From Lewinella sp. LCG006 (lineage in GTDB: Bacteria > Bacteroidota > Bacteroidia > Chitinophagales > Saprospiraceae): DNA of 64,000 nt. Shown here in pieces: positions 40,813 to 41,597 of this stretch (positions are counted from its first letter, which is position 1; each line of letters starts with the position of its first letter). A program made the translations under genes and the position numbers. The notes under the pieces were generated by a model. The model had not been told where the DNA came from. It did not search any database and saw only the letters and a list, made by a program, of their open reading frames with translations. The stretch lies in the NCBI RefSeq assembly GCF_040784935.1, contig NZ_CP160680.1, forward strand, positions 1,417,501 through 1,481,500, written 5' to 3'.

Positions 40813-40865
40813 GCGCGCTTAACAGCAAGGGCCTATAGCTCAGTTGGTTAGAGCACCGGACTCAT

Positions 40866-41555
40866 CAAAGGAGAGTTTCAATAATCATGAAGAAGTTTTG
40901 TGTAGTATGCGAGGTCCCTTTATCGGGTCAAAAAAAGATGTATTGCGGGAATACTTGCAAACAAAAGCATCATTACCATCGTGTAAAAGCACAAACTAAC
41001 ACTTACCATTCCCAAACGATTCGAGCTATTTCAAGGAAACTTGAGTTGATTGAGCTTTTAGGTGGAAAGTGTAATTCATGCGGCTACTCAAAAAATATTG
41101 CCGCTCTTCAATTTCATCATCTTGATCCAGAGGTTAAAGCTTTTAAACTAGGGCATAGGATGTTATCAAACAGAAGTTGGGAAGCAATATTGGAAGAGGT
41201 TGAAAAATGTATTCTCTTATGTGCAAACTGCCATGCAGAAGAACATAATCCAGAATATGCTTTAAATGCCGTCAAAAAGACGCTCCGCGGTGCCTCTCGT
41301 CGGAAACGGCGAGATGAGCAGGGGGTTAACTCAGGGAAACCTAAACCGTAATATTTACGATACGGCAATCCTGAGCCAAGCCTGGAGAAGATCATCCCAA
41401 TCTTGATTGGGAAGTACCCAGGAAGGTGCAGAGACTAGAAGGTGAGGAGATCAACCAATAAGCCTTCCTCGAACGCCCCCCGCCTAAGTTCCAAAATTTA
41501 TTTTGGAATAGGGCGATGATATAGTCCTACCCCATGGCGAAAGCTGCGGAAGGTG
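40866..41555 (+). ncRNA. Group I intron, 690 nt, in the tRNA anticodon loop
   Basis: Exon 1 ends in U and the intron ends in G (41555), as group I splicing needs. Core pairings can be written: P4 CTCAGG (41330-41335) with CCTGAG (41370-41375); P5 CCGTA (41346-41350) with TACGG (41361-41365); P6-region CCTGG (41381-41385) with CCAGG (41418-41422); P7 GACTA (41433-41437, in GTGCAGAGACTAGA) with TAGTC (41522-41526, in GATATAGTCC). The P/Q phrases AACTCAGGGAAACCTAAA and CAATCCTGAGCCAAG are classical. P1 may form between the exon end ACUCAU and GAGAGU (40871-40876), with a U-G pair at the splice site and one A-A mismatch. The intron encodes an HNH protein at 40887-41351. The subclass was not determined. 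Confidence 0.9.
40887..41351 (+). CDS. HNH homing endonuclease inside the intron
   Basis: A 154-residue protein. An N-terminal zinc finger (Cys5, Cys8, Cys20, Cys24) is followed by a helix, then the HNH part: CNSCG with Cys62/Cys65, LQFHHLDP with His77/His78, and LLCANCHAEEH with Cys112, Cys115, His116 and His120. This is the arrangement of free-standing and intron-encoded HNH nucleases. The likely role is to cut intronless tRNA genes so that the intron is copied in (homing). The last ~20 codons (RGASRRKRR...) overlap RNA needed for the intron core, so the true folded domain ends near residue 130. A purine-rich AAAGGAGAG lies 11-12 bp upstream of the start. Confidence 0.88.
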   Translation: MKKFCVVCEVPLSGQKKMYCGNTCKQKHHYHRVKAQTNTYHSQTIRAISRKLELIELLGGKCNSCGYSKNIAALQFHHLDPEVKAFKLGHRMLSNRSWEAILEEVEKCILLCANCHAEEHNPEYALNAVKKTLRGASRRKRRDEQGVNSGKPKP

Positions 41556-41597
41556 AATCCGTAGGTCGTAGGTTCAAGCCCTACTGGGCCCACTCTC

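Follow-up and report, generated by a model that had tools for sequence, protein, structure and literature searches.

A bacterial tRNA gene that is broken immediately after its anticodon, with a nuclease gene in the gap, raises the question of whether such a gene can still serve its host and what the insert does there. In the 64,000-nt stretch of DNA analysed here (the window), positions 40829-41592 of the forward strand, on which every feature of the interrupted gene lies, hold two tRNA halves (40829-40865 and 41556-41592) separated by 690 nt; when joined, they form a 74-nt tRNA with the anticodon loop CUCAUAA. ARAGORN run without introns detected no tRNA gene in the 64-kb window, and with introns allowed it returned the split tRNA and a 690-nt intron, with the junction slid by 2 nt and the label Gln(CUG). 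The joined exons were searched against 148 genomes (the host's own and those of relatives), and intact orthologues, which include the sequence GACTCATAATC, were found in two congeners (G002 and G003), where 72/74 bases are identical to the joined exons and the flanks align with genes upstream of the window tRNA, making the locus syntenic. The congener tRNAs, whose anticodon is CAU, align to the window as two blocks, the first ending at 40865 and the second restarting at 41556; therefore the anticodon is CAU, the junction lies between nucleotides 36 and 37 and the intron occupies 40866-41555. The 5' exon (40829-40865, nucleotides 1-36) ends with the anticodon, and the 3' exon (41556-41592, nucleotides 37-73) does not encode CCA. 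A tRNA(CAU) split between nucleotides 36 and 37 had been proposed in a first-pass annotation, together with a search for intronless orthologous genes, and the two syntenic congeners bear the proposal out.

The insert has the sequence of a group I intron. Rfam model RF00028 matches 41275-41549 with 65 bits (gathering threshold 50, E 3.2e-14) over model positions 1-253 of 253 and is the sole Rfam match at gathering threshold across the window. This match, which answers the Rfam check proposed earlier, and the exact absence of the 690 nt from the two congeners confirm the intron class first read by eye. Nineteen tRNA-Ile introns were collected, comprising that of the window, three from relatives and 15 from genome contigs, with L046 and L073 identical. 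All 19 share the exon end CAU, a final G (omega-G, 41555 in the window) and, for P7, AGAGACTA and ATAGTCC, which hold the strands GACUA (41433-41437) and UAGUC (41522-41526); both strands are invariant in 19/19 introns and so give no covariation support. A P1 made of ACUC with GAGAG near the 5' end of the intron was dropped in favour of the GUG that precedes the core, which in the relatives is able to pair with CAU. In the window, the P1 exon strand CAU (40863-40865) can pair with the internal guide sequence GUG (41290-41292), which sets U36 (U40865) opposite G41290; the 5' exon ends in CAT in 19/19 Ile introns and GGTG stands at the guide in 16/16 of those tabulated. As a correction to the earlier annotation, by this pairing the loop of P1 is taken up by the nuclease ORF, which also extends into the core. 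An 8-bp P2 hairpin with a GAAA loop, read by eye and from the alignment, lies at 41295-41314. The Azoarcus intron also has a CAU exon end and a GUG guide, and the window intron may resemble it (candidate subgroup IC3).

P1 appears to be extended by a 5' strand GGAG (40870-40873) and a 3' strand CUCC (41283-41286), both assigned by a helix test over 16 introns (the set without L071, L073 and L076) and both subject to the same limits. The best helix averaged 7.5 bp, whereas 1000 shuffles, which overstate independence as the introns are related, gave 3.9 bp on average and at most 5.06; the paired sequences vary from intron to intron. Only 4 bp, equal to the shuffled mean, are formed in 4/16 introns including that of the window; arm pairing exceeds the shuffled value at p < 0.05 in five of the ten HNH introns (p 0.116 for the window), and in 5/10, the window again included, the 5' arm pairs better with another stretch of the ORF. 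The loop of the P1 helix measures 4-22 nt in ORF-less introns, 98 nt in L072 and 386-427 nt, with the gene, in HNH introns. The GGAG strand could double as a Shine-Dalgarno-like sequence for the ORF. The sequences show the boundaries, the core, the guide pairing and the position of the ORF, as they do the selection on the ORF in relatives and the three states found within one genus; splicing, cutting and homing are what we infer from them.

The split gene is most likely a tRNA-Ile2(CAU) gene and, again most likely, the only one in the genome. Alongside the CAU anticodon the genome encodes TilS (180 bits), the enzyme that makes lysidine on tRNA-Ile2, and the pairs C4-G69 and C5-G68 are presumably TilS signals in the tRNA. 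The gene is distinct from the two other CAT tRNA genes of the genome, which were judged from their sequences to be those of initiator Met (L013) and of elongator Met (L029). The genome yielded 38 tRNA matches with 150/275 candidates scored, and the best own-genome match to the joined exons is a tRNA-Asn (6/19 candidates scored). An intact second tRNA(CAU) of the same type, which the first-pass annotation had named as the mark of a dead copy, was sought in the own genome and not found among these scored candidates. A 16S rRNA gene gave no match in the single-contig genome, and this, together with the fractions scored, means that parts of the genome sequence may be masked or missed. Since no intact Ile2 copy was found and TilS is encoded, splicing is probably essential for the host.

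Two other readings of the gene were weighed. An identity as tRNA-Gln(CUG), the label that ARAGORN gives once introns are allowed, has almost no probability: it needs a junction 2 nt upstream that breaks the U/omega-G rule, and the intronless orthologues carry CAU. Rather more can be said for a dead copy, as the terminal anticodon-stem pair (C27, U43) is mismatched and the AUA codon is rare (14 of the 400 Ile codons counted in five reading frames of the window), but we regard this too as very improbable. The mismatch is shared with the ORF-less sister intron locus L046, and the position reads U27, C43 in one intronless congener and A27, U43 in the other; a mismatch that also occurs in an intronless gene is no sign of decay. 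Furthermore, the checked core elements are intact, TilS is present and the own genome revealed no other Ile2 gene among the candidates scored.

An HNH endonuclease ORF within the insert had been recognised in the first-pass annotation, and the match of the 154-aa product (40887-41351) to HNH family PHROG 2255 (E 4e-25; PHROG 3106, E 5e-24) supports that assignment. The score to Pfam HNH is 18.8 bits against a gathering cut-off of 21.4, which is a curator's threshold and not an enzyme property. HH, N, H and cysteine residues are invariant in 10/10 intron-encoded proteins. A PDB search gave no sequence relative of the protein. Foldseek listed 30 matches at E up to 10, of which not one reached 0.001; HNH-type nucleases are among them, but without significance (best E 0.22). 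The ORF lies in the P1 loop and its last ~20 codons run through P2-P5; residues 137-154 have an AlphaFold pLDDT under 50, and the frame meets an early stop in the core region in 6/10 intron-borne ORFs (L062, L063, L065, L066, L068 and L069). The C-terminal tail is taken as a by-product of ribozyme sequence. The ORF has a GC content of 37.4% versus 48.6% for the window, at about the 6th percentile of window stretches. In four Hymenobacter pairs and one Runella pair (5/7 possible within-genus pairs) dN/dS is 0.06-0.13, values by which the ORF is under selection in these relatives; in both pairs computed with the window ORF dS is saturated, and third codon positions are the most divergent.

Comparison with relatives places the window intron among several allelic states. 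The four genomes of one genus that were searched present three of them: an empty site (G002 and G003), an ORF-less 303-nt intron (G001, locus L046) and the HNH intron of the window. The ORF-less intron of G001 is syntenic and has the identical insertion site, and it is identical to L073 from an uncultured Lewinella record, so that the host can be called Lewinella-like. The mobility claimed in the first-pass annotation thus finds its support in comparison alone, through the three states in one genus. An HNH search of genome contigs gave 17 loci. In nine of these (L061-L069) the same site is occupied by an intron whose P1 loop holds the complete ORF; the nine belong to Emticicia, two Runella, four Hymenobacter, a Saprospiraceae and a Bacteroidia record. 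The remainder comprise a Peregrinibacteria record (L070) with an antisense HNH gene inside an intron at 33/34 of a tRNA(CAU), as read from its sequence; an intact free-standing HNH gene beside an ORF-less Ile intron (L071); a truncated HNH gene standing free about 100 nt downstream of the tRNA gene (L072); three loci matched through the core-encoded tail only (L073-L075); and two matched only in short stretches (L076 and L077). ORF-less introns occupy the same site in L040, L042, L046, L074 and L075. Among 395 sampled genomes of the phylum the HNH gene was detected in two, the host's own and one with a partial match to profile positions 41-121, and a search for relatives on plasmids gave no match. 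Near the intron start, 7/10 HNH introns (L062-L066, L068 and L069) carry GTTCTTTGA, which is absent from the window; it resembles, we presume, a boxA antitermination signal, and it also occurs in each of the viral loci L117-L121.

In IMG/VR, relatives of the nuclease are encoded in 318 stretches, and the best 80 of the 318 were kept, near-duplicates included (e.g. L119/L120 and L143-L145). These viral relatives lie mostly beside tRNA genes: ARAGORN found a tRNA gene in 74 of the best 80 loci, at most 300 nt from the HNH match in 63/80 and at most 100 nt in 56/80. A tRNA-density control used 25 of the 80 records, from which near-duplicates had been removed by hand once the distances were known, and counted all tRNAs of a record: 19/25 lay at most 300 nt away, where 6.0 would be expected as an upper bound, and 16/25 at most 100 nt away, where the bound is 3.5. 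The five closest viral loci among the best 80 are 60-68% identical to the window protein and have a tRNA(CAT) gene within 83 nt, L119 and L120 being alike and a tRNA-Arg gene lying closer still in L118. Phage records gave 363 matches, all below 60% identity. A scan with Rfam of 20 of the 80 viral loci revealed group I introns in two, with the HNH gene antisense inside one (L128) and just outside the other (L170). L128 (1517-2414) is a viral-database contig in which a group I intron (59.4 bits) containing an antisense HNH relative interrupts, at 33/34, a tRNA read as CAU, the layout of L070; apart from HNH, the ORFs tested on it matched no PHROG family, and the contig is therefore only putatively viral. 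L170 (1627-1918 and 1962-2522) is on a 153-kb viral contig with 26 tRNA matches, where a tRNA read as Lys(UUU) is split by a group I intron (84.8 bits) and the HNH relative lies just downstream. A 2014 review states that the introns of phages known at that time were confined to protein genes (PMC3984707).

By sequence comparison, the insert is a real and probably active mobile group I intron, and the fuller reading that we favour, and hold to be very likely, is of an intron in the apparently sole tRNA-Ile2(CAU) gene that removes itself and whose P1-loop HNH protein cuts or nicks intronless alleles, leading to homing. The pre-tRNA would be transcribed and fold into P1-P9, the guide GUG (41290-41292) would hold the exon end CAU, guanosine would attack after U36, the exons would be joined at omega-G 41555 and TilS would modify the joined tRNA, the chemical steps being modelled on the group I family. 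In intronless tRNA-Ile2 alleles the HNH product would make a cut or nick close to the anticodon, and repair of the cut allele would copy the intron in. The ORF crosses P1, the guide and P2-P5, so an unspliced RNA that is being translated should be unable to fold as a ribozyme, and vice versa. In T4 introns the nuclease start site is hidden in RNA structure (PMC2988022), a role that the GGAG strand of the extended P1 could fill here.

A ribozyme that works and is needed by the host could nevertheless carry the HNH gene as a passenger that has ceased to promote homing here or has another place of action. In L040, L042, L046, L074 and L075 the site is still occupied by ORF-less introns, so the ORF is not needed for intron persistence; HNH genes also occur outside the intron, truncated in L072 and intact in L071; and the tail is not conserved, as the early stops in 6/10 intron-borne ORFs attest. 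We nonetheless consider a passenger unlikely, given that the catalytic residues are invariant in 10/10 intron-borne proteins, that dN/dS is low in the relatives and that the window ORF is intact. Among seven cores compared, that of the window is closest to the ORF-less sister (84.6%), and in the core tree, from which L073 was left out as identical to L046, it is sister to this ORF-less core of the same genus (support 98/94), so that the HNH gene was gained or lost between the two. The window HNH may have been captured separately from a phage-type nuclease and not co-inherited with the other intron-borne HNHs, a somewhat doubtful account that can call on the ORF-less sister, on the leader without GTTCTTTGA and on one HNH tree in which the window groups with viral rows L117-L119 and L121 (90/87). 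This grouping is lost when core-encoded tails are trimmed and three distant viral rows dropped, and a single clade of the intron-borne HNHs is not rejected, either with all ten (p-AU 0.254) or with nine, without L067 (p-AU 0.23); independent capture was accordingly not accepted as established. On a broader scheme, to which we give slightly less belief than doubt, a tRNA-specialised HNH lineage would alternate between free-standing genes in phage tRNA arrays and genes embedded in bacterial tRNA introns. It would have invaded the introns of tRNA(CAU) genes on more than one occasion, in sense orientation within the P1 loop at 36/37 (Bacteroidota) and in antisense orientation at 33/34 (the Peregrinibacteria record and the viral contig), and the window would represent a recent capture into a previously ORF-less intron.

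To our knowledge, the tRNA-Ile introns of Acidovorax, Burkholderia and Azoarcus are small and lack an ORF. As in the window, group I introns interrupt tRNA-Ile2 in Acidovorax and Burkholderia (PMC8450103) and pre-tRNA-Ile in Azoarcus (PMC3984707), but the window intron differs in the HNH gene in its P1 loop and in its Bacteroidota host. Putative group I introns have also been reported in tRNA-Arg and tRNA-Leu genes of Thiomargarita and Beggiatoa (PMC4853749). The 655-nt tRNA-fMet intron of Synechocystis, which encodes the PD-(D/E)XK homing endonuclease I-Ssp6803I (PMC1995217), is comparable to the window intron in lying in a tRNA gene, in size and in encoding a homing endonuclease (putative in the window), although the tRNA is another and the nuclease family, PD-(D/E)XK versus HNH, is unrelated. 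SegB of phage T4, a homing endonuclease located between tRNA genes (PMC2988022), offers a further parallel as a nuclease gene among tRNA genes, one that drives its own inheritance, but it is a free-standing GIY-YIG enzyme of a phage, whereas the window gene is HNH, inside an intron and on a chromosome. The phage HNH endonucleases of PHROG 2255 and 3106 belong by profile to the same protein family as the window product, but the viral relatives lie mostly beside tRNA genes and inside a group I intron in only 1/20 viral loci scanned. In the portions of the literature available, a 2007 compilation contains no HNH in a tRNA intron (PMC1995217), the main text of the 2014 review lacks the words HNH and Bacteroidetes (PMC3984707), and a study of crAss-like phages describes introns in phage protein genes and none in tRNA genes (PMC7886860). 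The initial view that such an intron had not been described therefore holds in part. Among the matches listed, represented by title and start of abstract and including few subscription papers, no report of an HNH-bearing tRNA intron or of a Bacteroidota tRNA group I intron was found; it does not hold for introns in tRNA-Ile2 (PMC8450103), for interrupted tRNA-Arg and tRNA-Leu genes (PMC4853749) or for a nuclease-bearing fMet intron (PMC1995217).

The locus thus places a putative HNH homing gene inside an intron of a bacterial tRNA gene that is apparently single-copy and presumably essential, so that a failure to splice would be expected to kill the host. The empty, ORF-less and nuclease-bearing alleles in one genus make the cycle of intron gain and loss directly testable, and the link to phage tRNA arrays suggests a source of tRNA-intron nucleases. 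Such genes can be missed or mislabelled by tRNA finders, as seen with ARAGORN, which reported none without introns and Gln with them, and the authors of tRNAscan-SE state that tRNA genes carrying insertions of this kind are outside what their program was designed to find (PMC8450103).

Several other introns and features were met alongside. By exon reading, 29 loci (L032-L060, with three further places left out) comprise 12 in tRNA-fMet (33/34), eight in tRNA-Leu, three in tRNA-Ile2, one in tRNA-Arg, four at tmRNA and one unassigned. The fMet introns L038 and L045 of relatives encode PD-(D/E)XK nucleases (Pfam PDDEXK_5, E 1e-45 and 2.5e-48), and the L045 protein matches PDB 2ost (1.2e-57), which we take to be I-Ssp6803I. 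The tRNA-Leu introns L057 and L060, also from relatives, encode a different HNH type (Pfam HNH_3, with HNH just below its cut-off). Group I matches overlap the ends of tmRNA matches in four relatives (L032 1197-1836, L033 1501-2077, L034 817-1382 and L035 1501-2064), so ssrA may be intron-split in these; a tmRNA intron has been reported in Clostridium botulinum (PMC1995217). Elsewhere in the own genome (G000), unusual tRNA genes for Ile(GAT), Lys(TTT) and Phe(GAA) lie clustered at C1:1267502-1267745; the Lys and Phe genes differ from other copies (L003 and L004), and the cluster possibly derives from a mobile element. Downstream of the split tRNA gene, 42967-63987 of the window encodes, on the reverse strand, a 7006-aa ORF that contains numerous repeated stretches and ends in a sorting-type tail at its C terminus.
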